A stretch of 25,952 nucleotides of DNA from a virus, in IMG/VR virus record IMGVR_UViG_3300042469_000664, positions 1 through 25,952 of that record; one strand, 5' to 3'. Below, in pieces: positions 3,117-22,625 of the stretch. Each line of letters opens with the position of its first letter. The stretch's first letter is position 1. A program made the translations under genes and the position numbers. The notes beneath the pieces are model-generated. The model saw only the letters and a list, made by a program, of their open reading frames with translations. It had not been told where the DNA came from and did not search any database.

Positions 3117-3677
3117 ATGCAAAACGCTCTTACAAAACCCCCGGCACGAGGCCCCCATCCTCTTTTGCGGGGCAACACCCAGCACCGCGATATCTGGACC
3201 TACTTCGAATTGGCTAAGGCCGATGAACGGGGTATGACCGCCGCCGAGTTGCGGGACGCCCTGAAATGGCCGCACCATATCGCCATGGCCCGCGTCACCG
3301 AAATGGTAAACGAGGGGCTGCTCGTGCCCACGGGGCAGATGCGCCTCCTGCCGCCGAGATACCAACGCAGCGGCAAGGTCTACACCCGGGTTAAGGAAGG
3401 CGAGACTGCCCACGGCCGGGACCAGATCAAAGTCAGCTTCGAAATCCGGGTCAACGAATACGGCGAGTACAGCTTGGGCCGTTGCGAGATCGTAGGACAA
3501 ACGCCTCACGAGGCCGCTAATGCCTCCCGGGGCATTTTGCAAACGGTTGCAACTTCCACCACCACAGTGCGGGTTCCGCGCCCCACGGAAGCGTTCGCTA
3601 TCCGCCGTCGCGCTGTTAGCGACGTTGTATCAAAAGACTTGACAATTACGGATGTCGAATACACAGTGGAGTCCTAA
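3117..3677 (+). CDS. winged-helix-like protein, 186 aa
   Basis: Residues 25-80 look like a winged helix-turn-helix domain: helix (RDIWTYFELAKADERG), helix (MTAAELRDALKW), recognition helix (HHIAMARVTEMVNEG), then a wing (LLVPTGQMRLLPPRYQRSGKVYTRV). Family resemblance suggests DNA binding, but no exact family is recognised. The middle part (KVSFEIRVNEYGEYSLGRCEIVG) looks like beta strands. Element copy 4 is embedded at residues 141-145 (LQTVA). There is no Shine-Dalgarno site, and a promoter just upstream would give a leaderless transcript. Its stop codon lies in a hairpin that also contains the ribosome-binding site of the next gene. A regulatory role is possible. Confidence 0.75.
   Translation: MQNALTKPPARGPHPLLRGNTQHRDIWTYFELAKADERGMTAAELRDALKWPHHIAMARVTEMVNEGLLVPTGQMRLLPPRYQRSGKVYTRVKEGETAHGRDQIKVSFEIRVNEYGEYSLGRCEIVGQTPHEAANASRGILQTVATSTTTVRVPRPTEAFAIRRRAVSDVVSKDLTITDVEYTVES
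3537..3552 (+). repeat. dispersed 16-bp element, copy 4
   Basis: TTGCAAACGGTTGCAA, a full consensus match inside the winged-helix-like gene, read as Leu-Gln-Thr-Val-Ala. It is 125 bases from the gene's end and 87 bases upstream of the TTGACA box at 3639. Confidence 0.95.
3639..3665 (+). promoter_or_regulatory. weak candidate promoter for the SLOG gene
   Basis: A perfect TTGACA at 3639-3644 is followed after 15 bases by TACACA at 3660-3665. The spacing is short, so this is tentative. It lies inside the end of the preceding gene and would drive the 3695-5831 pair. Confidence 0.35.
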
Positions 3678-3693
3678 ACTTAACAAGGACTCC
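3668..3693 (+). promoter_or_regulatory. hairpin masking the ribosome-binding site of the 3695 gene
   Basis: GGAGTCCT (3668-3675) pairs perfectly with AGGACTCC (3686-3693) around a 10-nt loop. The right arm contains the AAGGA ribosome-binding site for the ATG at 3695. The upstream stop codon (3675-3677) sits at the top of the left arm, so ribosomes finishing the upstream gene would open it. This fits translational coupling. It could instead be a protein-binding palindrome. Confidence 0.5.
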
Positions 3694-3694
3694 C

Positions 3695-4114
3695 ATGATT
3701 TACGGTGTGTTCGGCCCAAGAGACGTAATGCCGCAAGCACTCAGGCTTGCAGGCTCCGCAAAGTCCGAAGACAACGGGCTCGTCCCTTACGACAATTTCG
3801 AATACATCGCGAAGCAACTGGATGCTTTTCGCGACATAGACGGCCTCATTCTCGGGGGCGGTCTTGGCGTTGAGAAATTCGCGGAGGATTGGGCCAAGGA
3901 CCGCAACGTCCCGTACTCCACCATCCGGCCCAACTTTGCTGCGCATGGCGGGGAGCGAGCCCACGCCTTCAAGTCGCGCAACGTCGCCATCATCGAGCGG
4001 TCGCACCGGCTGATCGTGTTCTGGGACGGCATACCCAACGGCCCGCTCGGGGCGGTACTCGCTGACGCGATGACCCTCAAAAAGGAAGTCCACCTCCTGC
4101 CGCTGGAGATTTAG
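3695..4114 (+). CDS. SLOG-superfamily (DUF2493/YspA-like) nucleotide-binding protein, 139 aa
   Basis: The layout matches the small Rossmann-like SLOG proteins. There is an N-terminal strand (MIYGVFGPRD). A glycine-rich GGGLG at residues 54-58 is followed by the helix VEKFAEDWAKDRNVPY. An R-N pair at residues 95-96 (SRNVAIIERSHRLIVFW) follows, then FWDG at 109-112. Members bind or process nucleotides or nucleotide-derived signals, and some act in bacterial defence, but the exact ligand cannot be told from sequence. The start has AAGGA five bases upstream, inside a hairpin. It is one base from the glycosyltransferase gene, which suggests a joint role. Confidence 0.8.
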   Translation: MIYGVFGPRDVMPQALRLAGSAKSEDNGLVPYDNFEYIAKQLDAFRDIDGLILGGGLGVEKFAEDWAKDRNVPYSTIRPNFAAHGGERAHAFKSRNVAIIERSHRLIVFWDGIPNGPLGAVLADAMTLKKEVHLLPLEI

Positions 4115-4115
4115 G

Positions 4116-5831
4116 ATGTATAGTCCTCGTCTCCGTATCCTGATCGACCCCGTCTATGTGCAGATATCCAATCTGTCCGGGTCCTCCACCTATCGCAAGT
4201 ACGTGACGCTCGTCCGTGAATTGGTCAAGGACGGGCATTACGTTTATTGGTGCGTGCCCGATGAAAGCAAATACGTCCCGGACGAAATCGAGAACCACCC
4301 CAACGTCGGCATCATCCGAACGACGGCCATTCAAGACCAATTTGTGGTGGATGGTCTTATCACTGATCAGTTTTTCAATCTTTTTAACCGGGTGGGTGGC
4401 AAGTATCATATCGATGTGCTGGTTACTTCACGAACCTCGCTGGCTCTACATTATAAGCGGCTGCTGGAGCCACCACGCTTTCACGACAATGGTGGGAACT
4501 ATACTGACAAGGGTTACGGGCTTCCCGTAGTAATCCTCGAAGAGTTCCCCCAAACCCGGAAGCGGCAGAACACCGGGGAAGCCTACTGGCTTGAGCAATG
4601 CATGGGATACATCGCCAGCGAGGCGACGGTGTTCCTGTCCAATCACAACCGCGAGGAAGTGACGGCGGGGATGCTCGATTACATGCGCACATCCCTTGTC
4701 GATAAGTTCGCACGCGAGCAGGCTACGGTTATCCCGGCCGGTATCGAGTGCGACCAACTCGACGCCCTTTACGATCCAGACAGGTGGCGGCACGAACCGG
4801 GTTATCAGGTCGTCAGCATTGGTCGCATTTTCGGTGTTAGCTACATCGAATACCTACCTTGGTTCGACTATCTCTTTAAGGCAGGAATGGACGATGTCAG
4901 ACTCACTGTTTCGCTTTCGGGAGCATTGGGCGGACCTATGCGGTCGAAGCTTGCTAAGATCGGTTTCCCATTTGATAGTCTCGGACGCCAGTTCCGAATA
5001 CTTGAGGGTAACAATCGAGCTAACTTTATCCGCCAGCTTCGCGGGTACCATTCGTTTGTTTGTCCCATGTCCCACCTCGACCACCCCACGGGTATTTTCG
5101 AGGCCATCTACATGGGACTACCCGGAGTCATGCCGGTTGCAGACTTTCAGCAATCCTTTTTCAAAGACTGGCCGTGGGTTATTGCTCCAAAAGATAAGGG
5201 CGCACTTATCGGGCACCTGAATTGGATACGTGAGAACAAGGAAGAAGCCCGCCGCATGGTCCTTCCGTTCCGCGAAGAAATCCGGGCCAAGTACGACGCC
5301 AAGAACACGATTGCACTCGTTTGCAAATCGATCACCGACGCGGCGCAGTCGCACCTCGACCGGTTCAAGACTTCGGGGGCGGTCATCCGGTTCTGCGAGG
5401 AGCTTCAAGGCGAACGCTACAAAATGCAGGATGTTGTGGACTTCCTGCGCAAGCAAGGGTATATGGGCGTCTCCATCGGGGACATGTCCATCCGCACAAC
5501 GTTCACCTATGCCTTTGGTGCGATCCACCACACTATGCGCAAGGCCGGGTACATCGATGTATGCGAAGGCCCGGACCCGTACTTTGTACGACGGGATATT
5601 TTCGAGCGTGACTACCTGCCCCGGCAGGCGTCTCGCCCGATTATTCCGCTAACCGACGATGAAAACTTAATCGAGGAACCTAATGCCTCTAGTAAAGCCA
5701 AGCTCCGGTACGCTGTTGCCCCCCGTAACACCGGGCAACAAAATCGGCTTTCAGCCCCGATTGCTGCGCCAAGCACCGGGAACGCCCCCACCGGCCGCCC
5801 CGGGCGGAAGCCCCTCAAAAAACCCGGCTAA
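4116..5831 (+). CDS. GT-B fold glycosyltransferase with a C-terminal winged-helix-like domain, 571 aa
   Basis: Residues 1-220 and 230-415 look like the two Rossmann halves of a GT-B enzyme. The first opens with LRILIDPVYVQISNLSG. The second has YQVVSIGRIFGVSYIEYL and a GT4-like nucleotide-sugar motif near residue 325 (SHLDHPTGIFEAIYMGLPGV), where the E of FEAI is the expected donor-binding glutamate. Residues 422-493 look like an added winged helix (YKMQDVVDFLRKQGY, a helix TYAFGAIHHTMRKAGYID, and a wing PDPYFVRRD). The tail is basic and proline-rich and overlaps the next gene by 149 bases. Family knowledge supports sugar transfer from an activated donor. The acceptor is unknown: phage or host DNA, or a surface polymer. 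The gene starts directly after the SLOG gene. Confidence 0.8.
   Translation: MYSPRLRILIDPVYVQISNLSGSSTYRKYVTLVRELVKDGHYVYWCVPDESKYVPDEIENHPNVGIIRTTAIQDQFVVDGLITDQFFNLFNRVGGKYHIDVLVTSRTSLALHYKRLLEPPRFHDNGGNYTDKGYGLPVVILEEFPQTRKRQNTGEAYWLEQCMGYIASEATVFLSNHNREEVTAGMLDYMRTSLVDKFAREQATVIPAGIECDQLDALYDPDRWRHEPGYQVVSIGRIFGVSYIEYLPWFDYLFKAGMDDVRLTVSLSGALGGPMRSKLAKIGFPFDSLGRQFRILEGNNRANFIRQLRGYHSFVCPMSHLDHPTGIFEAIYMGLPGVMPVADFQQSFFKDWPWVIAPKDKGALIGHLNWIRENKEEARRMVLPFREEIRAKYDAKNTIALVCKSITDAAQSHLDRFKTSGAVIRFCEELQGERYKMQDVVDFLRKQGYMGVSIGDMSIRTTFTYAFGAIHHTMRKAGYIDVCEGPDPYFVRRDIFERDYLPRQASRPIIPLTDDENLIEEPNASSKAKLRYAVAPRNTGQQNRLSAPIAAPSTGNAPTGRPGRKPLKKPG
5311..5326 (+). repeat. dispersed 16-bp element, copy 5
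   Basis: TTGCACTCGTTTGCAA, one mismatch in the left half. It lies inside the glycosyltransferase gene in a different frame from most copies, read as Ile-Ala-Leu-Val-Cys-Lys. Confidence 0.7.
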
Positions 5832-6663
5832 ACGGCCCGCTACGGGGGTTCTGCAACCGGTTGCAAAGCCTCCCGCCGTCGCGCTGCAGCCGTCCAACGT
5901 GCTGCAGCTTTTCGACATTCCGCATGACCTTCTCGTAGCGTCGCCCGAGAACCCCAACGAGCAGGACGACACGACTTTCGACCAAGTCCTTGAGGGCATG
6001 AAGCGCGACGGCTTCGATGAGAACATCATCGTGGTCCCGTATGTCGGCGCGGACCCGACCTTGCAGGGCAAGTACATCATCGTCTCGGGGCATCACAGGG
6101 CCAAGGCCGCGAAGATGCTCGGCCTACCCGGGGTACCGTCCAAAATTCATTCCAATTGGGATGACATGAAGCGCAAGCTGGAGCTTGTGCGGCGGAACCA
6201 ACTGCGGGGCTCGGTCAATCCCCAGAAGTTCACCAAGCTCTACGACGAGGTGATCAAGACCGGCCTCGACGCATCGGTCGTCAAGATGCAAATGGGCATC
6301 ACGAACGACAAGGCGTTCCAGCACCTCTACAAGGCGGTGTCGGCTAATCTGCCGCCTGCGGCCAAGAAGAAGCTGGACGAAGCCAAGGAAACGATCACGT
6401 CTGTTGACGACCTCTCGGGGGTTATCAGCCAGATTATGAAGGAACACGGCTCCGACCTCGCCCACGGCTTCCTGATCTTCTCCCGGGGCGGCAAGGACCA
6501 CATGAAGGTGGACATGACCCCGGAGCTATGGGCCAAGCTGCAGTCGGCGGCTACGCAGTGCCGGGGCGACAACACCAAGATGGGGCAGTTGATCGTGGCG
6601 GGGCTGGAGAAGGTGGTCGCCGCTTCGCTGCCCTCTAAGGTGCCGTTGAAGAAAGGCAAGTAG
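5683..6663 (+). CDS. ParB/Spo0J-type N-terminal domain protein, 326 aa
   Basis: Residues 75-190 match the ParB/Srx nuclease-like domain. An N-terminal segment lists a residue-spaced helix (TTFDQVLEGMKRDGFDE). A beta strand leads into the hallmark SGHHRAKAAKML, with G136-H137-H138-R139. ParB proteins use this motif to bind CTP, and some phage relatives are nucleases. A helical middle part follows (LRGSVNPQKFTKLYDEVIKTG and an HTH-like DASVVKMQMGITNDKAFQHLY). A C-terminal helical region could form a dimer. Residues 1-70 are proline-rich. The start has GAGGA five bases upstream but lies inside the glycosyltransferase gene. Its place next to terminase suggests a role in packaging, genome segregation or regulation. 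It could bind the dispersed element, but that is untested. Confidence 0.8.
   Translation: MPLVKPSSGTLLPPVTPGNKIGFQPRLLRQAPGTPPPAAPGGSPSKNPAKRPATGVLQPVAKPPAVALQPSNVLQLFDIPHDLLVASPENPNEQDDTTFDQVLEGMKRDGFDENIIVVPYVGADPTLQGKYIIVSGHHRAKAAKMLGLPGVPSKIHSNWDDMKRKLELVRRNQLRGSVNPQKFTKLYDEVIKTGLDASVVKMQMGITNDKAFQHLYKAVSANLPPAAKKKLDEAKETITSVDDLSGVISQIMKEHGSDLAHGFLIFSRGGKDHMKVDMTPELWAKLQSAATQCRGDNTKMGQLIVAGLEKVVAASLPSKVPLKKGK
5851..5866 (+). repeat. dispersed 16-bp element, copy 6
   Basis: CTGCAACCGGTTGCAA, one change at the first position. It begins 20 bases after the glycosyltransferase stop codon, within the proline-rich leader of the ParB-like protein (Leu-Gln-Pro-Val-Ala). Confidence 0.9.
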
Positions 6664-6669
6664 CGCGTT

Positions 6670-7335
6670 ATGACTATGCTTCGCCAGAAGATCAGACTGC
6701 GTCCGCCTCGCCGCGTGATGGTGTCCCTTAAGCCGGGGACGCCGGGGTACCAGAAACAAGCCCAAGAGCGGTACTACCGCAAGCTTGTAGCGGACCACAC
6801 GTCGTTGAAGGACATCATACACAATCTGGCCGAAGGCGTTGCCCCGCTTGCTATCGCCAAGCATTACGCGCAGCAAGGTCTTATAGACGTGCACGAGAAC
6901 GTCTTCTATAAGGCCCTGCTGCTGTTCCGTAAGGAAAACCATGCGGCCATCCAGAAGCAGGGGACCGGCAGTAAGCTGGACGCGATGATCAGCCCGAAGC
7001 TGGCCCCGCTCGACGGAGTGTCTACGGCCCACCAGCTTTTGCGGCTGCAGAAGGACCGGCTTGCTATTGCGCACGCTTTCGAACAGACCACCAATATGCC
7101 GGTGCAGAACGTGCATCGCGATATAGCGGAGGCCCGGGAGCTTATCGAGGTTATCCTGCGGACCGAAGGGCGTGCGGGCGGGGGCGGGCAGAGCGCCAAA
7201 GCCATGAACCAGAGTTTCGCCCCGGACGTGTCCGAAAACCTTGAGAAGCTGCGGCGTGAAACCGATGGCGGGGACGCCCTGCACAATCTTACGCGTGAAC
7301 TGGTAAAGACCCATGGCGACTCAGATAGTAGTTAA
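6670..7335 (+). CDS. putative small terminase subunit, 221 aa
   Basis: I call this mainly from position: it lies directly before the large terminase and overlaps it by 23 bases. The start of the protein is very basic (LRQKIRLRPPRRVMVSLKPG). Residues 40-95 look like a helix-turn-helix (SLKDIIHNLAEGVAPLAIAKHYAQQG, then VFYKALLLFRKEN). Helices with coiled-coil character follow (STAHQLLRLQKDRLAIAHAF and VHRDIAEARELIEVILRTEG). DNA-binding N-terminus, helical oligomerisation core and location all fit a small terminase, which recognises phage DNA and controls cutting. Direct sequence similarity is not evident. No clear Shine-Dalgarno site precedes the ATG, and a second ATG follows two codons later. 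Confidence 0.55.
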   Translation: MTMLRQKIRLRPPRRVMVSLKPGTPGYQKQAQERYYRKLVADHTSLKDIIHNLAEGVAPLAIAKHYAQQGLIDVHENVFYKALLLFRKENHAAIQKQGTGSKLDAMISPKLAPLDGVSTAHQLLRLQKDRLAIAHAFEQTTNMPVQNVHRDIAEARELIEVILRTEGRAGGGGQSAKAMNQSFAPDVSENLEKLRRETDGGDALHNLTRELVKTHGDSDSS

Positions 7336-9574
7336 GCGGCCGAAGCTCATTCTTCCGCCGGGGGTGGTACTGCCCTCGTTTGTGCCGAAGAAGCCCCCGC
7401 CGCATCTGCAAACGGTTGCAAACAAAAGCCCGCTCATTATGAAGCGGGCGTTGCTACGTTCGGTAGAGGAAGGGCACGTCTCCCCGGTCGATACCGAATT
7501 CTCTATGGACGAGAAGACCGCCACGATCCTGCAGCAAATCCGCCAAGAGGCCGAAGGTCTTGACGACGCGAAGATGCGTGATCTGTGGCTGGACGCGTGC
7601 AACACGTACGCGAAGAGCGGGAACGTTACGGCCTTGACCGAGATTACGGCCTACCGCCGTAGCGTCGTGTCCATGGAAGAGTTCATGTACACCGAGACGT
7701 ATCTCGGGCAGAAAGAGGACGAAATCTATCCGGGCGTGCACAAGGCGTGCATGGAACTGGACAACGACATTTACAATGAAGCGGTTCTAAAGGGCGCTCT
7801 GGGCATCGGCAAGACGACCATCGCCAACATCCACATTCCGCGCGTCGTCTACAAGCTGTCCTGTATGCGCCACCCCCAGACTACCTACGGGGTGCGTTCG
7901 GCGTCGTCGCTGGTTATCTCGATCCAGTCCATTCGCCTAGCTACGGCCAAGAAAGCCGTCTTTCAGGAAATGGCTCCGATCTTCCGTAACAGCCCGTACT
8001 TCCGGAGTATGTACCCGTACGATCCGTACGTCACGTCGCAGATGGTATTCCGGCGGCAGAACGTCAGCATCATGCCGGTGTCGTCCTCAACGACCGGCGC
8101 TATCTCCATGAACGTCATCGCGGGCATCCTCGATGAAATGAACTTCATGCAGAAGATCAAGGACTCGAAATCTTCGCAGGCGTCGGACGAGGGGACGTTC
8201 GATCAGGCGAAGCAAATGTACGAGACTATCACTCGTCGCCGTCAATCGCGCTTCAACAAGAAGGGCAAGCTCCCGGGTATCATGTTCCTCATTTCGTCGT
8301 CCAAGTACCCGGACGACTTCACCGAGAAGAAAGCGGCCGAGGCGACCATGTGCGGGGGAACCAACCCGCATATCTACGTGTTCTCGCTGGCGCAGTGGGA
8401 AGCCAAGGGAGCCGAAAGCTTCCTGCCCGAGAAATTCAAGGTGCAGATAGGCACCGCTTTCGTCCGCTCGCGCATCCTAAAGCAAGACGCCGAAACCGGA
8501 GAGTGGGAACAGCCCGACGAAGGGTGCCGGGTCATCGAAGTTCCCATGGACTTCTTTCCGGCCTTCCAGACGAACGTTGACGATAGCTTGCGAGACTTCG
8601 GCGGTATCACGCTGCTGTCCCAGCGGCCCTTCATCGCCCGCCGTGAAATGGTCACCGTCGCTATGCACAACGGTGAAAAGGCGGGCTACCTCAATCCCAT
8701 GAAGGGACTTGAGGCTATCGACCTTGAGCTTGGCATGCCGGTGCTGGACATCACCCGGGTGCGTACCGAAGGGCACCTGATCAACAGTCCGCGCCATATC
8801 CACGTTGACTTGGGGCATAAGCGGGATGCCTGCGGACTAGCCATGGGGCATATCGTCGGCCAGAAGCTTATCGAGCGTATCGACAAGAACACGGGGCTTG
8901 TCACTCGATCCGTCGCCCCCATGATCGCCGTCGATCTGGTCGCCCGCATCGTGAAGCCCCCGGGCGGGGAGATCGAATTCGCCAAGGTCCGGGAATTCAT
9001 CAAGACACTACGGGATGCCTACCACTATCCCATCGAGTGGGTCACCTTCGACGGCTTCCAATCCATCGACAGTCGCCAAATCCTCCGCAAGGAAGGGTTC
9101 AAGGCGGACTACCAATCGGTCGAGGACGTGGAAAGCTATCGGTCACTACGCGATGCCCTGTACGAGGAGCGGGTGCTGCTGCCCCATCACATGGTCCTAA
9201 ACCAAGAACTGGTCGGCCTAGAGTGGAAGCAAGACGGCAGCAAGGAAAAGGTCGATCATCCTACCAACGGATCGAAGGACGTTGCTGACGGCGTCTGCGG
9301 CGTCGTATCGTTCCTGTTGCGCCGTCGTGCCTCTTGGGCGGGCACCATAAGCGGGGCGACGGACATCAACCTGTCGGACCTCTCCCAGAATTCGCAGCGC
9401 GTCACCACCCCGGCTTTGCAAGCGGTTGCAAATACAGGGGCGGCCGGGGAAGCCGCCAACGATGCGCACGACAAGGGCTTGGCCGCGAAAACCGGCACGC
9501 TGAGCGGGCACAGGACCACCCAAGCTCGCCGCAATGTCCATCGAAAAAAGGTCAATAGACGCGTTTATACATAG
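7313..9574 (+). CDS. terL: large terminase subunit, 753 aa
   Basis: This is the motor and nuclease that packages DNA into the prohead. Residues 161-169 (GALGIGKTT) are the ATP-binding Walker A loop. The Walker B acidic pair is D274-E275 in VIAGILDEMNF. The C-terminal RNase H-like nuclease is marked by D499 in HVDLGHKRDACGLAMGH, D in IEWVTFDGFQSID (about residue 584), and D659 in SKDVADGVCGVV. At 753 residues it is longer than most large terminases. The excess is a proline-rich N-terminal leader (residues 1-45) and a C-terminal tail. Both extensions carry a copy of the dispersed element (7 and 8). The start overlaps the previous gene, so translation is probably coupled. Confidence 0.93.
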   Translation: MATQIVVKRPKLILPPGVVLPSFVPKKPPPHLQTVANKSPLIMKRALLRSVEEGHVSPVDTEFSMDEKTATILQQIRQEAEGLDDAKMRDLWLDACNTYAKSGNVTALTEITAYRRSVVSMEEFMYTETYLGQKEDEIYPGVHKACMELDNDIYNEAVLKGALGIGKTTIANIHIPRVVYKLSCMRHPQTTYGVRSASSLVISIQSIRLATAKKAVFQEMAPIFRNSPYFRSMYPYDPYVTSQMVFRRQNVSIMPVSSSTTGAISMNVIAGILDEMNFMQKIKDSKSSQASDEGTFDQAKQMYETITRRRQSRFNKKGKLPGIMFLISSSKYPDDFTEKKAAEATMCGGTNPHIYVFSLAQWEAKGAESFLPEKFKVQIGTAFVRSRILKQDAETGEWEQPDEGCRVIEVPMDFFPAFQTNVDDSLRDFGGITLLSQRPFIARREMVTVAMHNGEKAGYLNPMKGLEAIDLELGMPVLDITRVRTEGHLINSPRHIHVDLGHKRDACGLAMGHIVGQKLIERIDKNTGLVTRSVAPMIAVDLVARIVKPPGGEIEFAKVREFIKTLRDAYHYPIEWVTFDGFQSIDSRQILRKEGFKADYQSVEDVESYRSLRDALYEERVLLPHHMVLNQELVGLEWKQDGSKEKVDHPTNGSKDVADGVCGVVSFLLRRRASWAGTISGATDINLSDLSQNSQRVTTPALQAVANTGAAGEAANDAHDKGLAAKTGTLSGHRTTQARRNVHRKKVNRRVYT
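7406..7421 (+). repeat. dispersed 16-bp element, copy 7
   Basis: CTGCAAACGGTTGCAA, in the non-conserved N-terminal leader of the large terminase (Leu-Gln-Thr-Val-Ala, residues 32-36). Confidence 0.92.
9416..9431 (+). repeat. dispersed 16-bp element, copy 8
   Basis: TTGCAAGCGGTTGCAA, a full consensus match in the C-terminal tail of the large terminase (Leu-Gln-Ala-Val-Ala), 143 bases before its end. It is 152 bases upstream of the promoter at 9583. Confidence 0.95.
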
Positions 9575-9582
9575 TCTAACGT

Positions 9583-9611
9583 TTGCGCTAAATGGCCCCT
9601 CATGCTATGCT
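9583..9611 (+). promoter_or_regulatory. candidate promoter, TTGCGC-17-TATGCT with extended -10
   Basis: TTGCGC at 9583-9588 and TATGCT at 9606-9611, 17 bases apart, are the same hexamers and spacing as at 2779-2807. A TG at 9603-9604 gives an extended -10. It would start transcription near 9618 for the accessory block beginning at 9636. Confidence 0.65.
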
Positions 9612-9635
9612 TACGCACCAGCATCGAGGAGCAAA

Positions 9636-10250
9636 ATGCAAACATTCGACATGTGCCCATCGCCTTGGATCGATGAGGCGGAAGGGGAAATATGGGAGGA
9701 CGGGGTACGTCTCTTCCATAGGTGGCTCTGGCATAAATTCGGGGAGCGCTACTTCTACGGGCACGAAGTAGCCGAGCATCTGGACGTGCATCGCGAGATC
9801 ACGGACCACTGGCTTAACGTCGTCAAGTCTTACGAACTGATCGATGTCGAATTCATCGACATCATCCCCAAGAACCGTACCGGCGAGCATGAAATGCTCT
9901 GCTACATCGTGCGGGAAACTCCCGAAGAGGGCGGCGCGCAGCCGATAGTGGCGGACGAATTGCGGGACTTCGATCCGTGGGTTGACCGCAGCTACGACGC
10001 GGAGATACCCAACCTCCTGTGGCCCGACCTCACCATCGACAAGTATTACGACATCACGTTCGATGAGGTTAAGGCCACAACGGGCAAGGCCCGTCGCCGC
10101 CATACCCATTACCCCTTCATGCCAGTGCCCTGCACGGAGTTGCCCCGCTATGCCTCTGCTAAAACGTGGGGCGATACTCGCCGCGCCGACCGTTCCCTCC
10201 CCGATCCCAAGTGGCAGGCTGCTATCGAAAACGCCATTACGCCCGCGTAG
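9636..10250 (+). CDS. hypothetical protein with possible winged-helix N-terminus, 204 aa
   Basis: The start at 9636 is chosen because GAGGAG lies four bases upstream. A longer frame from 9534 would overlap the terminase and the promoter. Residues 15-70 resemble a winged helix: WEDGVRLFHRWLWHKFG, HEVAEHLDVHREITDHWLNVVKSYELIDVEFIDI. The remainder is acidic and rich in aromatics (DELRDFDPWVDRSYDAEIPNLLWPDLTIDKYYDITFDEV) and ends in a basic stretch. No family is recognised. It has its own promoter and opens the accessory block between terminase and portal. A DNA-binding or regulatory role is a weak inference. Confidence 0.75.
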   Translation: MQTFDMCPSPWIDEAEGEIWEDGVRLFHRWLWHKFGERYFYGHEVAEHLDVHREITDHWLNVVKSYELIDVEFIDIIPKNRTGEHEMLCYIVRETPEEGGAQPIVADELRDFDPWVDRSYDAEIPNLLWPDLTIDKYYDITFDEVKATTGKARRRHTHYPFMPVPCTELPRYASAKTWGDTRRADRSLPDPKWQAAIENAITPA

Positions 10251-10302
10251 CCTGACGGGGGCGCTAGACCAATATCTCTCGTTCGTGGAGAAGCACGGTC
10301 GT

Positions 10303-10686
10303 ATGGCATCGGAGTGGCGGGAATTCCATGTTGGGAGCGCCCGCCCTGCGGTCCTGCGCGTGATGGTCAACAAGCTGTACTACTTTGCAGCGGCCATCGA
10401 GGGCATCGGTCCGAAGGAATTCAAGCTTATTGCAAACGTCTGCAAAAGCTGGAACGTGATACTGGATACCTATCTGCTGGCGACCTACAAGTATTACCAG
10501 AAGGACGATCCGATCTTGTCGGACTTCTCGTATGATGCGCTGGTGCAATACATCGCGTATCACCATATGGCCGTGCGGAAACTCGCCGTAAACGGGGCAG
10601 TCCTGCCGGTTCCGTTTGGCCCCTCCTCCTCTCATGCTATAATCGTCCCCAGCGACATCATCGAATTTTCACGGGTTTACGAATGA
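10303..10686 (+). CDS. small helical protein, weakly like the DNA ligase N-terminal (Ia) segment, 127 aa
   Basis: Residues 35-90 (LIANVCKSWNVILDTYLLATYKYYQKDDPILSDFSYDALVQYIAYHH) resemble the helical Ia segment that starts bacterial NAD-dependent DNA ligases, where a tyrosine pair is followed by DDP-x-I-S-D-x-x-YD. No adenylation domain follows, so this is not a ligase by itself. The start is uncertain. I prefer the ATG at 10303, with GAGAAG nine bases upstream; a GTG at 10285 has no ribosome-binding site. The stop codon overlaps the next start as ATGA. Element copy 9 is inside the gene. Confidence 0.6.
   Translation: MASEWREFHVGSARPAVLRVMVNKLYYFAAAIEGIGPKEFKLIANVCKSWNVILDTYLLATYKYYQKDDPILSDFSYDALVQYIAYHHMAVRKLAVNGAVLPVPFGPSSSHAIIVPSDIIEFSRVYE
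10430..10445 (+). repeat. dispersed 16-bp element, copy 9
   Basis: TTGCAAACGTCTGCAA, one mismatch in the right half. It is inside the 10303 gene, read as Ile-Ala-Asn-Val-Cys-Lys. This is the same frame as copy 5 and differs from most intragenic copies. Confidence 0.88.
10615..10643 (+). promoter_or_regulatory. candidate promoter with perfect extended -10
   Basis: TATAAT at 10638-10643 is perfect and preceded by TG at 10635-10636. The -35 (TTTGGC, 10615-10620) is weak. It lies inside the end of the 10303 gene and would drive the four-cysteine genes from about 10650. Confidence 0.6.
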
Positions 10687-11255
10687 CCATCGATCCGTTC
10701 TTTCGCGACCTACCTCTGCGGAGCGAAGCCAAGCTTAAGGCTTTGGGCTTCGGAGAGTTTGAGCTTCGGGAACACAAGCGGTTGGTCGACCGGTACCTGA
10801 AACTCCTGACGGCGTATCACACGGCCGAGGAAGCCAAGGATTGGGACGCCAGCTACATCGCGGAGCAGGAGATCGTAGCCCTCGCCACGACGGTGCATTT
10901 CCGGGGCGAGGACCCCAACGATATTCCTCTGGAGACGCTGCGGTATATCGTGAACAAGGCTCCGAATTCGCCAGCCCCGGATGCGGTCACGATGCAGTAC
11001 CGGGACAAGATCAAGTCCAAAGCGCCGTCGATCCGGGCCAAGTGCGTCAAATGCATGGGCGGTGCCCCCAGCCTAGTGAAGGGGTGCCCGTCCACTACCT
11101 GCCTGCTATGGCCGTTTCGCATGGGCACGAACCCTGTGCGCGGGGCACTCTCACCGCCAGTTACGGAAATCCTTATCCCCGAGGAACTGGCCGAAGAACT
11201 GAAACAAGAGCGCGTCGATAACGAGGACGCGGAAAAAGACGACGTAGGAGCGTAA
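10683..11255 (+). CDS. four-cysteine (CxxC-x10-C-x4-C) protein A, 190 aa
   Basis: The C-terminal part has C121, C124, C135 and C140 in RAKCVKCMGGAPSLVKGC followed by CLLWPFRMGTNP. This spacing suggests a small metal-binding site, probably zinc. Similar CxxC-GG...C...CPL-W/Y-xFR-x-G-x-NP segments occur in many uncharacterised phage proteins. The N-terminal 100 residues are helical and acidic (FELREHKRLVDRYLKLLTAYHTAEEAKDWDASYIAEQE), and the tail is highly acidic. The next gene carries the same motif with identical spacing. The start overlaps the previous stop as ATGA, and a strong -10 lies 40 bases upstream. Confidence 0.8.
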   Translation: MTIDPFFRDLPLRSEAKLKALGFGEFELREHKRLVDRYLKLLTAYHTAEEAKDWDASYIAEQEIVALATTVHFRGEDPNDIPLETLRYIVNKAPNSPAPDAVTMQYRDKIKSKAPSIRAKCVKCMGGAPSLVKGCPSTTCLLWPFRMGTNPVRGALSPPVTEILIPEELAEELKQERVDNEDAEKDDVGA

Positions 11256-12439: not shown

Positions 12440-12440
12440 T

Positions 12441-12456
12441 TTGCAACCGATTGCAA
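12441..12456 (+). repeat. dispersed 16-bp element, copy 10
   Basis: TTGCAACCGATTGCAA, a full consensus match. It starts right after the DUF1643 gene and ends 16 bases before the -35 box of the portal-gene promoter. Confidence 0.95.
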
Positions 12457-12472
12457 AGCCCGTCGAAAGTTG

Positions 12473-12530: not shown

Positions 12531-14357
12531 ATGGCACTTCGCAAATTGCTTACGCCACCTAAGCGCAACGCGGTGGTCAAGGATACGCGACGGAATGGGC
12601 GGGTGCTAACTGTTAGCATCGCTGCCTCTCCTCGCACCGAAGCATTCGACGCTCTGACGGAGCGAGCCCATAGAAAGGGGCAGCAACTTACCGATCCCTT
12701 CGCGTCAATGTACTTGGCCGCGGGCGGTACCGGAGGTTTGTCCATCGTGCAGCCGCAGTACAATCTGCAGCGGCTCGCGGACATGGTGCAGATCAGCAAC
12801 ATCCTCCGTCAGTGCATCGAGTCGTACACTGTCAACATCGACAGCTACGGCGGCGTGCTGGAGTACGTCGGTCCGGAAGGCGGCATGAAGAAGCCCGCCG
12901 CCCAAGCGGAGAAGGCCGAGCTTGAAGCCTTCATAGCCGGGTGCAGTGCCGAGTTCTCGTTTACAGAACTGCGCACAATGCATCGGTGGGACAAGGAGAC
13001 TCTCGGCTTCGGGACCTTCGAAGTCACCCGGGCGCAGAACGGCAAGGTGGCGATGTTCGACCATCTGCCGTCGATCACCATCCGCCGCACCACCAAGGAC
13101 AAGACCCCGGTCGAGATCGAAGTTCTGGTGCCTGAGACGGGGGACAACGGCATCGTCAAGTACCGCAAGACGGCGATGAAACGCCACTTCTGCCGGTACG
13201 TGCAGTCCGCCGCCGATGGTCGGAAAACCTACTTCAAGGAGTTTGGCGATCCCCGGCCGGTCAATCCCAAGACCGGGGCGGTGGACGCCTCGCTGAGCAT
13301 CGAGGACCAAGCCACGGAAGTGCTATGCCTTGGGCACTATGTCCCGGGAAGCACCTACGGCCTGCCGCGATGGCTTGGACAGGTGCCGTCCATTCTGGGT
13401 TCCCGCGAAAGCGAAATGGTGAACCTGAATTTCTTCCGCGAGAACGCCATCCCTGCGATGGCTATCTTGATTTCGGGGGGTGCCCTCACGGCCGAGTCCT
13501 TCGAAACCATCGAGAACTACATCACGGCGCTCAAAGGCCAGAAGGCCATGCACCGCATGATCGTGCTGGAAGCCACCGCCGATGATATGACGGGCTCCAC
13601 CGATCACGCGCAGTCGGCTCCCAAGATCGACATGAAGCCGATGATCAGCGAGCGCCAGCAGGACGGCCTCTTTCAGGACTACGACCAGAAGTCGCAGCAG
13701 AAGGTGCGTTCGTCCTTCCGCCTGCCCCCGATCTACGCAGGTCGCGCCGAGGACTACACCCGGGCGAGTGCGCAGGCTTCCATGCAGACCGCCGAGAACC
13801 AGATTTTCGGGCCGGAACGCATGGCGTTCGATGACATGTTCAACAGCAAAATCCTGCGGACGTTCCAGCCTCGCTACTGGCGGTACAAATCCTACGGCCC
13901 GCCGTTGAACGAGCCCGAAACCCTGTCTCGTATGCTGGCCGCTTTCGAGACGACCGGGGCGCTCACCCCCAACGTCGTGATCAAGATCGCGAACCGCATG
14001 CTGGACGTGCAGATCGAGCCGATCAAGGAAGAATGGGGCGATATGCCCTTCGGCCTGACGCTAGACGCTTTGCAATCGGGTGCAAAAGTAAAGGGCCTCG
14101 AAAACTATATCACACAGGTCGAAACGGCGGCTGCCGCGCCTCCTGCAGCGGCGGGGGCCAAGCCCACAAACGACAACAAACCCGCCGCCACGGCCGGGAA
14201 AAAGCCCCTAGCGCGCAAGCTCATTGCGCCCCCGGCTACCGGCCCGGGTTCCGCGTCGTTCATCGCCATGCAGCGCATGGTTCGACGGGAACTCAAGATG
14301 CACACCCGGGATATCCGCAACGCCATTTCCGAAGGGGCGCTCGATGAAGCCGTCTGA
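12531..14357 (+). CDS. portal protein, PBSX-like, 608 aa
   Basis: The portal forms the dodecameric ring at the packaging vertex. The family is shown by a central block characteristic of PBSX-like portals: TYGLPRWLGQVPSILGSRESE then MVNLNFFRENAIPAMAILISG, followed by KSQQKVRSSFRLPPIYAGRAEDYTRASAQASM, where a particle-like docking motif is expected. N-terminal residues 1-60 form a basic leader. At 608 residues it is somewhat long. The added C-terminal tail (from about 515) is alanine/proline-rich and ends in a basic helix; it may reach into the capsid. Element copy 11 lies at the start of that tail. The end overlaps the next gene by 14 bases. Confidence 0.9.
   Translation: MALRKLLTPPKRNAVVKDTRRNGRVLTVSIAASPRTEAFDALTERAHRKGQQLTDPFASMYLAAGGTGGLSIVQPQYNLQRLADMVQISNILRQCIESYTVNIDSYGGVLEYVGPEGGMKKPAAQAEKAELEAFIAGCSAEFSFTELRTMHRWDKETLGFGTFEVTRAQNGKVAMFDHLPSITIRRTTKDKTPVEIEVLVPETGDNGIVKYRKTAMKRHFCRYVQSAADGRKTYFKEFGDPRPVNPKTGAVDASLSIEDQATEVLCLGHYVPGSTYGLPRWLGQVPSILGSRESEMVNLNFFRENAIPAMAILISGGALTAESFETIENYITALKGQKAMHRMIVLEATADDMTGSTDHAQSAPKIDMKPMISERQQDGLFQDYDQKSQQKVRSSFRLPPIYAGRAEDYTRASAQASMQTAENQIFGPERMAFDDMFNSKILRTFQPRYWRYKSYGPPLNEPETLSRMLAAFETTGALTPNVVIKIANRMLDVQIEPIKEEWGDMPFGLTLDALQSGAKVKGLENYITQVETAAAAPPAAAGAKPTNDNKPAATAGKKPLARKLIAPPATGPGSASFIAMQRMVRRELKMHTRDIRNAISEGALDEAV
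14070..14085 (+). repeat. dispersed 16-bp element, copy 11
   Basis: TTGCAATCGGGTGCAA, one mismatch in the right half, in the portal gene near the start of its variable tail (Leu-Gln-Ser-Gly-Ala). Confidence 0.88.
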
Positions 14358-15044: not shown

Positions 15045-16283
15045 ATGCGAGTCAAGCCGAAGATCGTTACACGACGTGTTCGTCTGCTCCGTGACCCCAA
15101 TCCGACCTACGTGTCGCTAGTGGATCACGGTGCGAACCAGACGCCGTTCTCGGTCGTCAAATCCCACCTACCCAACGGAGTCACTGCCATGAAGGTCAAG
15201 CTGCCCCTCAAGCCCGCCACGACCAAGGTCGCCAAGACCGAAGGACAGGAGGGCTCCAAGGATCAGGCCATCCTCAAGATGACGTTTCCGGTCGCCAACT
15301 ACCCGACCGAGGCCGCTGTCAAGGCGTATCTCGACAAGAACCGTTTCGACGGCGACATCACCATTTCGAAGGGCAAGGACGACCTGTTCTTCACGGCGGC
15401 GTCCAAGCTGGCCGAGGCCGACCTCACCGACATCCGTCAGGTCCCCTGCGAGAAGGGCGCGCTCGCGTTCGTCGGCAAGATCAAGGCCCCCGAGAGCGAC
15501 GACGAAGACGACAGCGAAGGCGACGAGGGCGAGAGCGCGTCGAAGCTGGCCGCCCCGTTCGTCAACATCAAGCGCTTCTCGTGGTACGACGCCTACTACG
15601 ACGAGAGCAAGGACCCGATCGACATCCTCAAGGCCGGGATGAAGGACGGCCTGCCGCCGGGCATGGAAGACATCATGTTCGCCGTCACCCGGTCCATCGC
15701 CAACGTGATCAAGGACGCGGGCGAAGGCGACATGGGCGCCAACATCGACAACATCGGCAGCAGCATGGCGAAGCTCGTCAAGGGCGTCGCCAATCTGTAC
15801 GTGACCCTCTCGTCCGAAGCGACCGAGAAGGCCATCAAGGGCATCGACAAGGACTCCGCCGCCGTCGCCTTCAAGACCATGATCGATACGTGGATCGAGA
15901 AGAACGCCGGGGACGTGACCGACGCCGCTTTGCAATCGTTTGCAGACGCCGCCAACATCCCGGCCGAAGGCGACGACGAGAAGGACCCGGCGCTCAAGGG
16001 CGTCAAGGTCAAGGCGGTCAAGGAAGTCGACATGTCGGCCTCGATTGCCGAAGCGGTCGGCAAGGCGGTCGGCGCGCTCGTCGCCCCGCTCAACGAGACG
16101 GTGACGAAGCTCGTTTCGACGCAGGAAGGCATCACCAAGCGACTGGATGACGCCGAGAAGCGCGCCCCGACCCGCAAGGCCGCCCTCGACGCCGAGATCG
16201 AGAAGGTCACCCCGGAAGTCACCGAGAAGGACCTGTTCGGCCGCTTCGGCCTCGCCGGTGGCCTCGGCTTCGGCAGTCGCTAG
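15045..16283 (+). CDS. putative head scaffold/capsid assembly protein, 412 aa
   Basis: The leader VSLVDHGANQTPFSVVKS (residues 24-41) is typical of phage head-assembly proteins coded next to XkdF-like proteases. After it come a lysine-rich stretch, a globular region with acidic repeats (ESDDEDDSEGDEGES), a helical middle, and a C-terminal coiled coil (AVGKAVGALVAPLNETVTKL, ITKRLDDAEKRAPTRKAAL). Such long helical, acidic proteins just before the major capsid gene commonly serve as scaffold. Codon use is strongly biased to C-ending and AAG codons, unlike the early genes, as in highly expressed genes. An internal ATG at 15189 (MKVKLPLK) could make a shorter form. Copy 12 of the element is inside. 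Confidence 0.65.
   Translation: MRVKPKIVTRRVRLLRDPNPTYVSLVDHGANQTPFSVVKSHLPNGVTAMKVKLPLKPATTKVAKTEGQEGSKDQAILKMTFPVANYPTEAAVKAYLDKNRFDGDITISKGKDDLFFTAASKLAEADLTDIRQVPCEKGALAFVGKIKAPESDDEDDSEGDEGESASKLAAPFVNIKRFSWYDAYYDESKDPIDILKAGMKDGLPPGMEDIMFAVTRSIANVIKDAGEGDMGANIDNIGSSMAKLVKGVANLYVTLSSEATEKAIKGIDKDSAAVAFKTMIDTWIEKNAGDVTDAALQSFADAANIPAEGDDEKDPALKGVKVKAVKEVDMSASIAEAVGKAVGALVAPLNETVTKLVSTQEGITKRLDDAEKRAPTRKAALDAEIEKVTPEVTEKDLFGRFGLAGGLGFGSR
15930..15945 (+). repeat. dispersed 16-bp element, copy 12
   Basis: TTGCAATCGTTTGCAG, one change at the last position, inside the scaffold-like gene (Leu-Gln-Ser-Phe-Ala). The TTG and GTTTGC codons stand out against the C-rich codon use of this gene. Confidence 0.9.
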
Positions 16284-17327: not shown

Positions 17328-17357
17328 CGGGGGTTTGCAAACGATTGCAAACCCCCG
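17328..17357. repeat. dispersed 16-bp element, copy 13, inside a 13-bp stem after the capsid gene
   Basis: The core TTGCAAACGATTGCAA is at 17335-17350. It is extended on both sides by matching bases (CGGGGGT and ACCCCCG), giving 13-bp inverted arms around ACGA. The transcript could form a strong hairpin 14 bases after the capsid stop, but there is no T-run, so it may be a weak or factor-assisted terminator or an mRNA-stabilising hairpin. The right TTGCAA (17345-17350) is also 18 bases from CATAAA at 17369-17374, so it might act as a -35 box. Confidence 0.92.
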
Positions 17358-19341: not shown

Positions 19342-19343
19342 CT

Positions 19344-19910
19344 ATGGCTACGTCCATCGATATCCCCGACTACACCGTTGCCATCCCGCCGATGACGTGC
19401 CGGGACCGCATCATGTACCGCATTCTGCAAACGATTGCAGACATCCCCAATCCCTACTCCACAGTCGGAGACAGCAACGCCTCGCATGGCGACCTCTTCA
19501 ACGAGGTTGTATTCGGGGACACAGTGGCCGTTCCGGCAGAGGTAAATCCTGTCGTCGGGATAGTGGAAATGGAGGAAACTCCTATCGCCCTGCTGTTCCC
19601 GTACGTGGATAAAGAGCTTCGTATATCGGTGGAATTCCGCTGGTTGCCCGATAAAAAAGATGTGGACACCTTTAGGCTGTTCCGATACTATCTGGCGCAG
19701 TTGACTTCACGTCTCACAGGCAAGTCCGACGAGGTGCAGCGTATGCCCACGGCAGACCACCCGGAGGGCCTGACTATCGGCGTGAGGGAGGACGGTAATT
19801 TCCCGCAAATCGAGGGAGCCGAGGAAGAGGCTCCGTCGGGTGTGTTGAACCTAATTGTAACTTACCGCCACGTTAATGGCGATCCGTACAAGTTCCATCC
19901 CAACGATTGA
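19344..19910 (+). CDS. putative tail terminator / completion protein, 188 aa
   Basis: Called from position immediately before the tail tube gene and from its general shape: an N-terminal helix containing DRIMYRILQTIADIPNPYSTVGD, then strands (PIALLFPYVDKELRISVEFRWLPD), a helix (FRLFRYYLAQLTSRLTG), and a final strand pair (SGVLNLIVTYRHVNGDPYK). Tail terminators stop tube growth and join head to tail. No sequence signature fixes the family. The ATG is two bases after the previous stop, with GAGG eleven bases upstream. Element copy 14 is near the start. Confidence 0.6.
   Translation: MATSIDIPDYTVAIPPMTCRDRIMYRILQTIADIPNPYSTVGDSNASHGDLFNEVVFGDTVAVPAEVNPVVGIVEMEETPIALLFPYVDKELRISVEFRWLPDKKDVDTFRLFRYYLAQLTSRLTGKSDEVQRMPTADHPEGLTIGVREDGNFPQIEGAEEEAPSGVLNLIVTYRHVNGDPYKFHPND
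19425..19440 (+). repeat. dispersed 16-bp element, copy 14
   Basis: CTGCAAACGATTGCAG. Both outer bases are changed and remain complementary, so symmetry is kept. It lies 81 bases into the tail-terminator-like gene (Leu-Gln-Thr-Ile-Ala). Confidence 0.92.
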
Positions 19911-19922
19911 CGAGGAATAATC

Positions 19923-20096: not shown

Positions 20097-20121
20097 GCCC
20101 GCCCCCGGCAACCCCTCAATT

Positions 20122-20137
20122 CTGCAAACGATTGCAA
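20122..20137 (+). repeat. dispersed 16-bp element, copy 15
   Basis: CTGCAAACGATTGCAA, one change at the first position. It lies in the 53-base gap before the tail tube gene, two bases before its GGAG ribosome-binding site. Confidence 0.93.
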
Positions 20138-20149
20138 ACGGAGTAACCA

Positions 20150-21718
20150 ATGACTGTCGCCAACGCCCCTCTGACCCAGCGCTCGCTTATGCTGGCGAAG
20201 ATCGAGAGTACGTTCAACACGGACGCACTGCCTGTCCCGACCACCGACGCGTTTCTCGTCGGCGATGTGGACTTGAAGGTCGACTCCACTGTGCTGGAGC
20301 GCAACTTCTTCCGCGCCTCGCTGTCCACCATCCCCGTGTCCATGGGCCGCAAGATCGTGACCGTCACGTTCCGGCACGAGATCAAGGGCAGCGGCACCGT
20401 GGGCGTCGCCCCCAAGCTCGGCACGCTGTTGCGCGGCTGCGGCTTTGCGGCCACCGCCGTCACCGCTGGCGCTGCTACGCAGATCGCCAACATCACGTCG
20501 GAACCGACCAACACCGGCCCCGCTGTCACCTTCGCCAAGACCACGGTTCCCGGCGCGACGGGGCATGGCCGTTACCGGTTTACGGTCGTCCTCGGCGGCG
20601 CGTCGGCCACGGCGAAAATCCGTGTCACGGGCAACCCGGGTGACATCGATGACCCGACCCTCCTCAATTCCGAGGAGATTTCGGCGCAGGTGTTCGGTCC
20701 GGGCACCCCGGCCATTACCGTCACTGTCGGCGGCACTGCGCTGATCCCCACCTTCACGATTGTCGGCACGGGCAGCGCCGGTGACATGATCGTGGTGACG
20801 CTCGGTGGCTACCGCGCCTCCTATGTCCTCACCGGCGCGGAAGGCAGCGTTGCGGCTATCGCTACGGCGCTCACGGCTGCAATCTCGGCGGCCGACCCGG
20901 GCTCCCTGTGGACCGAAGCCTCTGCGGCTGGCGTGGTCACCGTCACGTTCACCAATGCGGCGGCTGGCGTCGTCGTGACCACTGCGGTGACCGGCCTCGT
21001 GTGCGGGGCCAATCTCGCCGTCGTCACCCCGTCGTGGACCGGCTCGCTCGTGCTGGGGGACAGCTACTTCACGGACACCCGTGTCGTCGGTGTCCACTAC
21101 TCCCCGATCAGTGCGAATTTCGAGAGCCTCACGTTCGCCGTCTTCTTCGATGGTGCGCTGCATCGTGTCACGGGTGCCCGTGGCAATGTGCAGTTCACCT
21201 GCGAGGCGGGGCAGCTTGCCATGGCGAGCTTCACCTTCACCGGCCAGTACGCTTCCGCGTACAAGGCGGCGCTCCCCACCACGGCGGTGTACGAACGCAG
21301 CCGTCCGGCACAGGTGGAACTCGCCACCCTCGCGCTGGGCGTCGGCAAGTTCCTGCGGGCTCAGTCGTGGACCGTGGACATGGGCATCACCATCCAGCCG
21401 CGCGACAGCGTCTCGCATTCGGATGGCTACATGGGCGGGCAGCTTACCGCCCGTAACCCGACCGGCGGCCTGAACCCCGAGGCGGACAGCGAAGACCTGT
21501 TCCCGGCGTGGGGCTACCTCACCACCTCGCCGCTCCTGCGCTTCAACGCGCGTGTCGGCACGACGCCGGGCAACATCATCCGGTTCATGTCGGAGTCGGC
21601 TCAGGTGCGCAACGTGCAGTACACGGATCGCAACGGCAACCGGGTGTTCGACATGTCGCTCGGCTTCCCCCGGGACAGCGACGCGGGTGACGACGAAATC
21701 CGGCTGGTCGCCTGCTAG
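20150..21718 (+). CDS. major tail tube protein with inserted Ig-like region, 522 aa
   Basis: The tail tube forms the channel of the tail. The N-terminal start RSLMLAKIESTFNTDALPV, DAFLVGDVDLKVDSTVLERNF and TVTFRHEIKGSG fits siphovirus tube proteins, and the C-terminal half resumes that fold (VHYSPISANFESLTFAVFFDGALHRVTGARGNVQF in parts). Residues about 120-300 form an inserted beta-rich region. This includes a segment common in phage virion proteins (TIVGTGSAGDMIVVTLGGYRASYVLTGAEGSV in parts). It probably displays domains on the outside of the tail. At 522 residues it is much longer than the usual 150-300. GGAG lies upstream of the ATG. Confidence 0.87.
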   Translation: MTVANAPLTQRSLMLAKIESTFNTDALPVPTTDAFLVGDVDLKVDSTVLERNFFRASLSTIPVSMGRKIVTVTFRHEIKGSGTVGVAPKLGTLLRGCGFAATAVTAGAATQIANITSEPTNTGPAVTFAKTTVPGATGHGRYRFTVVLGGASATAKIRVTGNPGDIDDPTLLNSEEISAQVFGPGTPAITVTVGGTALIPTFTIVGTGSAGDMIVVTLGGYRASYVLTGAEGSVAAIATALTAAISAADPGSLWTEASAAGVVTVTFTNAAAGVVVTTAVTGLVCGANLAVVTPSWTGSLVLGDSYFTDTRVVGVHYSPISANFESLTFAVFFDGALHRVTGARGNVQFTCEAGQLAMASFTFTGQYASAYKAALPTTAVYERSRPAQVELATLALGVGKFLRAQSWTVDMGITIQPRDSVSHSDGYMGGQLTARNPTGGLNPEADSEDLFPAWGYLTTSPLLRFNARVGTTPGNIIRFMSESAQVRNVQYTDRNGNRVFDMSLGFPRDSDAGDDEIRLVAC

Positions 21719-21744
21719 AAAAGGCAGACAGTAAAGACATATTA

Positions 21745-21776
21745 GGGGCCGCCGTCCGCAAGATGGTGGCCCCTTT
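21745..21776 (+). terminator. intrinsic terminator after the tail tube gene
   Basis: GGGGCCGCC (21745-21753) pairs with GGTGGCCCC (21765-21773), 9 bp with one G-T pair, followed by TTTC. The run of T is short. Confidence 0.75.
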
Positions 21777-21803
21777 CGTCATGTGCTAACAGGAGAGATC
21801 GTT

Positions 21804-22391
21804 ATGATCGACAGTATCCCCCTTTCTATGAACGTCAATACCGTGGTGGGCGTCACCCCGGTGTACGTGGCCCGTCCGACCCGGGGTGGCACCGTACTCA
21901 TGGTGAACGTCGAGGTCATCGGCGCGCGTGTCCGCCAAGGCAAGATGCTCATCAACACCTTCGCTGACGCGGACGTGAACGTCGCGACGGACGAAATCAC
22001 CGAGGTCGGGCATCCGTATGTCACGGGTGACGGTCCGTACTACCTGACGACCACCGTCGCCCTTCCTGCTGGGCTGCTCACTGCTACCCCTTACTACGTC
22101 GTGAAAACCGGGAACGACACCTTCCTGCTGGTGCTGTCCTACGAAGACGCCATGTCGTACGCTGGCTACAGCACGGCCAAGCAAGACCAAATCCGTGTCG
22201 ATATTACCGGCGCGGCCGGGGGCGGCACGAACACCATCGGCACGGCGCTCGCCACCGCTGCCGCTACGCATGTCCTCGGCAACGCCTCCATTCTGCTTGG
22301 CGTCCTCGGCACTTACGCCCTCGACTCCCCGAATGGCGTTACGCTGCAGGGCACGGCTGCGGGCTCCAAGATCAACTACTGGTGGGCGTAA
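21804..22391 (+). CDS. beta-rich virion-type protein, 195 aa
   Basis: AGGAGAGA lies six bases before the ATG at 21804; an upstream GTG at 21783 lies before that site and is unlikely. Residues 68-115 (GHPYVTGDGPYYLTTTVALPAGLLTATPYYVVKT in parts) fit a small beta domain that recurs in phage structural proteins with the pattern 'GHGFVTGDGPV-LT-...LPAGL...YYVI'. The first 60 residues form strands (VTPVYVARPTRGGTVLMVNVEVIGARVRQGK). The tail has GTALATAAATHVLGNASILLG. It may decorate the tail or be a second tail protein. Function is not proven. Confidence 0.65.
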   Translation: MIDSIPLSMNVNTVVGVTPVYVARPTRGGTVLMVNVEVIGARVRQGKMLINTFADADVNVATDEITEVGHPYVTGDGPYYLTTTVALPAGLLTATPYYVVKTGNDTFLLVLSYEDAMSYAGYSTAKQDQIRVDITGAAGGGTNTIGTALATAAATHVLGNASILLGVLGTYALDSPNGVTLQGTAAGSKINYWWA

Positions 22392-22407
22392 CTGTAACCG
22401 GTTGCAA
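22392..22407 (+). repeat. dispersed 16-bp element, copy 16
   Basis: CTGTAACCGGTTGCAA, two changes in the left half. It starts immediately after the stop codon of the 21804 gene, in the 33-base gap before the 22425 gene. Confidence 0.75.
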
Positions 22408-22424
22408 AATGAGTACCTGATCCC

Positions 22425-22625
22425 ATGAAGATCGTAACTTACCTAGTGGGCAGGGAAACAGACATCGTGGATGCCAACGGCAAGAAAGTGCTGTTGGTCT
22501 ACGCAAAGAAGTTGACACGCGGGCAGGCAGAGCCTATCATGCGCGCGAACCCCGGGACTGAAATCTTCAAGCACACCGTGCACAGTGACGGGTATGAGGT
22601 TTGCAACCGTTTGCAAACTGCATAG
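22425..22625 (+). CDS. small hypothetical protein, 66 aa
   Basis: Unknown small basic protein that begins MKIVTYLVGRETDIVDANGKKVLLVYAKKLTRGQ. It has an N-terminal strand pair and a helix. It lacks a Shine-Dalgarno site. The 5' gap holds element copy 16, and the last codons (Val-Cys-Asn-Arg-Leu-Gln-Thr-Ala) are built from copy 17, so it is bracketed by two elements 209 bases apart. It lies between virion genes and the tail-assembly chaperone. Confidence 0.7.
   Translation: MKIVTYLVGRETDIVDANGKKVLLVYAKKLTRGQAEPIMRANPGTEIFKHTVHSDGYEVCNRLQTA
22601..22616 (+). repeat. dispersed 16-bp element, copy 17
   Basis: TTGCAACCGTTTGCAA, a full consensus match. It forms the last codons of the 22425 gene, in a third reading frame (Cys-Asn-Arg-Leu-Gln), and ends nine bases before that gene's end. 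It is the last copy before the window edge. Confidence 0.95.

Follow-up and report, generated by a model that had tools for sequence, protein, structure and literature searches.

Cluster A mycobacteriophages such as L5 and Bxb1 carry tens of short dispersed sites, the stoperators, whose consensus varies between related groups (PMC3029335). Stoperators are asymmetric 13-bp sites oriented against transcription, and the phages that carry them are temperate and have a known repressor. The phage sites described here are like them in being dispersed over the phage genome, at similar density and with a group-specific consensus. Unlike stoperators, however, they are palindromic and evenly spaced, half of them lie in genes, and they occur mostly without lysogeny genes.

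The chromosomal sites of Noc (NBS) and the parS sites share another set of features with the phage array, as they are 16-bp palindromes with a central CG, a centre that most of the phage site classes have, and their specificity can be switched by a few residues. NBS are also scattered round the chromosome. In contrast, the phage array is phage-wide at about 2 kb and uses other bases (TTGCAANC), and its candidate reader, phrog_17202, has no recognisable CTPase domain. On plasmid RK2 the palindromic operators of the ParB-family protein KorB are likewise spread over the replicon, and a ParB-like protein of the phage has a fold closest to KorB. RK2 has about a dozen KorB operators, several of them tied to promoters, whereas the phage arrays have 40-60 sites, mostly free of promoter ties. 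The DNA uptake words of Haemophilus and Neisseria (USS and DUS) are also genome-wide and fairly even, lie in and between genes and are conserved at the DNA level. They serve DNA uptake by cells and are not palindromic, unlike the phage sites, for which no uptake role is evident.

A palindrome dispersed through the window

The window, the whole 25,952-base stretch of viral DNA that was analysed, holds 17 copies of TTTGCAANCG-NTTGCAAA (the hyphen marks the centre), where chance would give about zero. Allowing up to two mismatches, TGCAANCGNNTGCA has 41 strand-matches in the window, against 7.7 +/- 3.5 in shuffles (maximum 18). Intergenic DNA makes up 4.4% of the sequence and holds 7/17 copies, an enrichment with P=4e-6, and the copies are spaced more evenly than at random (CV 0.48 against 0.92, P=0.0007). 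The copies, which carry no strand, are listed below with the ParB-like gene.

1277..1294, palindrome copy TTTGCAAACGAGTACAAA, intergenic
2201..2218, palindrome copy TTTGCAATCGCTTGCAAA, intergenic
2827..2844, palindrome copy TTTGCAAACGGTTGCAGA, intergenic
3536..3553, copy read as LQTVA, inside the winged-helix-like gene 3117-3677
5310..5327, copy read as IALVCK, inside the glycosyltransferase gene 4116-5831; residues replaced, no indel versus homologues
5683..6663, plus strand, ParB-like protein (predicted KorB/ParB/Noc fold); phrog_26387, E 4e-47; best Foldseek match KorB 8qa9, E 1.6e-8
5850..5867, copy read as LQPVA, in the variable leader of the ParB-like gene
7405..7422, copy read as LQTVA, in the variable leader of the large terminase gene 7313-9574
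9415..9432, copy read as LQAVA, in the variable tail of the large terminase gene
10429..10446, copy read as IANVCK, in an open frame ending at 10686
12440..12457, palindrome copy TTTGCAACCGATTGCAAA, intergenic
14069..14086, copy read as LQSGA, in the portal gene 12531-14357; no indel at the copy versus most homologues
15929..15946, copy read as LQSFA, inside gene 15045-16283
17334..17351, palindrome copy TTTGCAAACGATTGCAAA, intergenic, 3' of the major capsid gene
19424..19441, copy read as LQTIA, inside gene 19344-19910, without an indel at the copy
20121..20138, palindrome copy TCTGCAAACGATTGCAAA, intergenic
22391..22408, weaker palindrome copy ACTGTAACCGGTTGCAAA, intergenic
22600..22617, copy read as CNRLQ, at the 3' end of gene 22425-22625

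All ten copies that a sequence-only reading had placed inside genes are present where it put them, and its three reading frames were recovered: seven copies are read as Leu-Gln-x-x-Ala, two (5311 and 10430) as Ile-Ala-x-Val-Cys-Lys and one (22601) as Cys-Asn-Arg-Leu-Gln. The copies at 2201 and 2827 stand on either side of gene 2221-2751, the sole minus-strand gene of the window. A SLOG-family protein (YAcAr, PF10686) is encoded at 3695-4114, immediately upstream of the glycosyltransferase.

The terminase, portal and capsid genes of the window resemble those of ~95-kb siphophages of alphaproteobacteria, namely Rhodobacter phages RcDurkin, RcMenchie, RcKickapoo and RcTiptonus and Agrobacterium phage JP1. 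Positions 25826-25952 are identical to bases 1-127 of G015 (IMGVR_UViG_3300044530_001128, 65,185 bases), and the tape-measure frame runs on from the window into that record. This exact 127-base overlap and the continuing frame make it most likely that the two records are neighbouring contigs from the assembly of a single phage genome. The site consensus is identical in both, and jointly they carry 55 sites with a CV of 0.48.

Related phages carry arrays of their own version

De novo palindrome counts reveal a dominant dispersed palindrome, of its own version, in most of the ~95-100-kb relatives examined. Site classes include TGCAAACG, TGCAATCG, TTGCAGG and TATAAC, and additional classes are found in the 20-kb loci surrounding the ParB-like gene. 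Classes are distributed as follows.

TTGCAAAC-G..: JP1, G029, G020
TGCAATC-G..: RcDurkin, G022, G018, G028
TTGCAGGn-n..: G001, G002
TTGCAACC-G..: G033
TTGCAAGC-G..: G026
TATAACnn(n)GTTATA: G012, G009

Written as single words, whole palindromes read TTTGCAAACGTTTGCAAA and, in the RcDurkin version, TGCAATCGATTGCA. One relative of the ParB-like gene's neighbourhood, L231, has another class, TGATAACGTTATCA. Each array is a single genome-wide, nearly regular set of 16-18-bp palindromes, with a CG centre in most classes; TTGCAGGn-nCCTGCAA and TATAACnnnGTTATA have no fixed CG centre. In the RcDurkin copies (loci L132/L133), pooled over genomes, a G-to-A change at the first G of the core affects the left arm 20 times, giving TACAAT, against 5 for the matching change in the right arm; on the coding strand TACAAT looks like a -10 hexamer.

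Across the family there is one site per 1.4-4.3 kb. The spacing CV is 0.38-0.62, versus about 0.92-0.98 for random placement, with P<0.0005 in JP1, RcDurkin, G022, G027, G029, G001, G002, G015 and G019. Sites and CV are 53 and 0.49 in RcDurkin, 46 and 0.46 in JP1, 40 and 0.42 in G022, 58 and 0.47 in G001, 38 and 0.43 in G015, and 45 and 0.46 in G009. Spacing in G018, G028, G026 and G007 is just marginally more even than random. Intergenic sequence is 7.3% of the JP1 genome and holds 28/43 of its copies; the count in RcDurkin is 27/58.

Phages of one class partly share their site places, even where their proteins are 34-57% identical, but phages of different classes almost never do (RcDurkin and G012, 0/18; JP1 and G001, 0/7). 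It is therefore the presence of a site every ~2 kb that is under selection, and a class switch resets the positions. The G006/G008 lineage keeps both candidate proteins discussed below and has no dispersed array. In G008, contig positions ~50.4-60.5 kb (the L168 region) hold ~15 degenerate TGCAAn4TTGCA sites, about nine of them within 55.4-56.15 kb, and these clustered sites resemble a centromere or origin cluster. This lineage counts against a reading in which either protein needs a dispersed array, and every account of the sites has to fit it.

Selection acts on the DNA word

To separate DNA from peptide, third codon positions in RcDurkin and its three sister phages of R. capsulatus (~98.5% identity) were compared between copies and flanks. 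Within 28 intragenic cores 1/406 comparisons differ between RcDurkin and its sisters, against 159/3156 in flanking codons. Counted as distinct columns over the four phages, 1/132 third positions vary in copies versus 139/1546 in flanks (Fisher P=9e-5), and random same-frame 14-mers from the same genes vary as little as the copies at P=0.0035. A more distant pair, G001 and G002, shares site-bearing genes that are 57% identical in protein. Here 25/32 intragenic copies lie at the orthologous place (0.5 expected), and identical residues use the same codon in 79/95 cases (83%) within copies and in 49% of cases elsewhere (P=9e-12); amino-acid identity is hardly higher in copies (67% versus 60%). As codons are kept with amino-acid identity barely raised, it is the DNA word, not the encoded peptide, that selection keeps in and between genes, and a shared peptide motif is ruled out by the G001/G002 comparison. 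Synonymous change is thus strongly suppressed at the elements relative to flanking codons in close and distant pairs alike, as expected from the original claim that DNA and not protein is conserved.

Reading frames are used unequally, 36:16:4 in the pooled window, JP1 and RcDurkin copies (P=8e-7). The preference is real and fits the proposed avoidance of cysteine, since a Cys is unavoidable in each of the two rarer frames. The further proposal that copies sit where insertion is tolerated describes only some genes. It holds for the leaders of the large terminase and ParB-like genes, where copies lie within lineage-specific insertions, and fails for the glycosyltransferase, portal and 19344 genes, where the copy substitutes residues without an indel relative to most or all homologues. 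In constrained proteins, then, copies mostly arise through substitution.

A candidate reader of the palindromes

Because the DNA word rather than a protein is kept in and between genes, a protein probably reads the palindrome, and it probably does so to organise or control the whole viral genome. Two non-enzymatic DNA-binding candidates are present in 11/11 near-complete arrays tested, the ParB-like protein, with its KorB/ParB fold, and phrog_17202, which weakly resembles ParB/Noc DNA-binding domains. We infer that phrog_17202 is the leading candidate reader. It occurs in every near-complete record examined; the window lacks it, and the adjoining contig G015 carries it. Its tails are rich in Ala, Lys and Pro (49-87% A+K+P) and histone-H1-like. 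In structure models built from window and IMG/VR sequences only, the top Foldseek matches of its helical domain are mostly ParB/Noc structures, none significant (best E 0.24). One member matches borfam_49, a Borrelia plasmid partition family (E 9e-4). A profile search of PDB sequences gave no ParB link, and an hhalign comparison with the ParB-like family yielded no match. The motifs GGxRK and GWWKA occur in the domain in 3/3 TTGCAGG phages, unlike in the other classes, and such class-specific residues favour phrog_17202 as reader, with the class correlation confounded by relatedness.

The phrog_17202 gene directly adjoins two ParB_N-like genes in G018 (26198-29885), G022 (49514-53396) and G027 (6794-10755), and this adjacency suggests a functional link. 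A palindrome lies upstream of phrog_17202 in 10/17 genomes, as it does for an AAA-ATPase gene. The upstream site was dropped as a sign of autoregulation, as by our own estimate intergenic preference alone gives nearly 10/17. LacI-family operators resemble the sites, and a LacI-type reader was rejected with PF00356 matches in 0/20 records.

Alternative explanations

The array could serve stoperator-like silencing, with a phage repressor on dispersed operators halting transcription genome-wide, in lysogeny or as a temporal shut-off, and the site versions marking immunity groups. Cluster A stoperators are indeed alike in density (~one per 2 kb), in dispersal and in class differences between relatives (PMC3029335), and the phage copies are enriched between genes, in JP1 often directly upstream of the ribosome-binding site. 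However, the same measurement on the stoperators of Jabith (cluster A2, of the same stoperator type as L5) gives uneven spacing (CV 0.96, P 0.61) of asymmetric, oriented sites, whereas the phage sites are palindromic and metrically spaced (CV about 0.4-0.6 in most phages). Nor are they confined mainly to intergenic DNA, given the 7/17, 28/43 and 27/58 counts in the window, JP1 and RcDurkin, and about half lie deep within genes.

Genes for lysogeny are mostly missing as well. An integrase is found in 3/17 records, ParA (AAA_31 match), the ATPase of plasmid-type ParABS partition, in 0/17, and a scan of 84,980 prokaryote genomes, within its sensitivity, turned up no relatives. Repressors of the HTH_3/XRE type occur in just 5/21 records, which also removes them as a universal reader. 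Intergenic copies have no clear promoter signal alongside, and an association with promoters is unsupported overall (JP1, 6/16 intergenic copies versus 4/23 copy-free gaps; RcDurkin, 0/15). We regard silencing as unlikely, though it is the main rival.

The ParB-like protein beside the terminase may itself read the sites, loading as a KorB- or Noc-like sliding clamp. It is universal in the group and has a KorB/ParB/Noc fold in the model, and parS (TGTTTCAC-GTGAAACA) and NBS (TATTTCCC-GGGAAATA) share with most of the phage site classes the geometry of CG-centred 16-bp palindromes (PMC7383237). Its predicted recognition helix, however, barely varies among phages of class A (GFTKKDAFEKVYKSI), of class GG (GFTKEDAFKKVYKSI) and with no array (GFTKEQAFKKLYSSV). 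That it reads the sites in this way is doubtful, and it may be kept as a second-choice candidate partner.

A role in RNA, as an mRNA hairpin that directs processing or controls translation, would suit a palindrome that can fold on either strand in genomes with almost all genes co-oriented, but the sequence itself is kept beyond pairing, with 80 transitions that keep G-U wobble versus 142 that break it, making this reading very improbable. That the palindromes are remains of a short mobile insertion copied repeatedly into the genome, as the copies within lineage-specific leader or linker insertions might suggest, is very improbable: copies in conserved genes arise free of indels, spacing is nearly regular, purifying selection is strong and whole sets change class together.

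A proposed genome-wide role

We consider the palindromes to be putative genome-wide sites of a phage-encoded dimeric protein, phrog_17202 being the best candidate, with a role that is probably architectural or protective and not that of a lysogeny repressor, and we give this reading an even chance. Such a protein would bind each palindrome and so decorate the genome about every 2 kb, and the ParB-like protein encoded beside the terminase, of CTPase fold, may act as its partner. The job would be genome-wide, whether folding the phage DNA, protecting it, or keeping it accessible or apart, with no particular gene controlled. Spacing that stays regular across long genes speaks for such an architectural or protective role.

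A broader proposal, which we advance tentatively as one possible account, is that these ~100-kb phages, most of them virulent, make a nucleoid protein of their own. This would be phrog_17202, a sequence-specific, CTPase-less DNA-binding protein of ParB/Noc-like type with H1-like tails, and it would require a genome-wide array of sites at metric spacing. A change in its specificity would force ~50 sites to re-evolve at new places, with spacing kept. What the arrays show is selection, over a whole viral genome, for a metric property, namely one site per ~2 kb; it is strong enough to rewrite codons of conserved genes, and the array is rebuilt after each class switch. If the reader is found, these phages would allow a phage's organisation of its DNA at genome scale to be studied in a testable and genetically tractable case, and would hold a natural record of joint specificity change in a DNA-binding protein and its ~50 targets.
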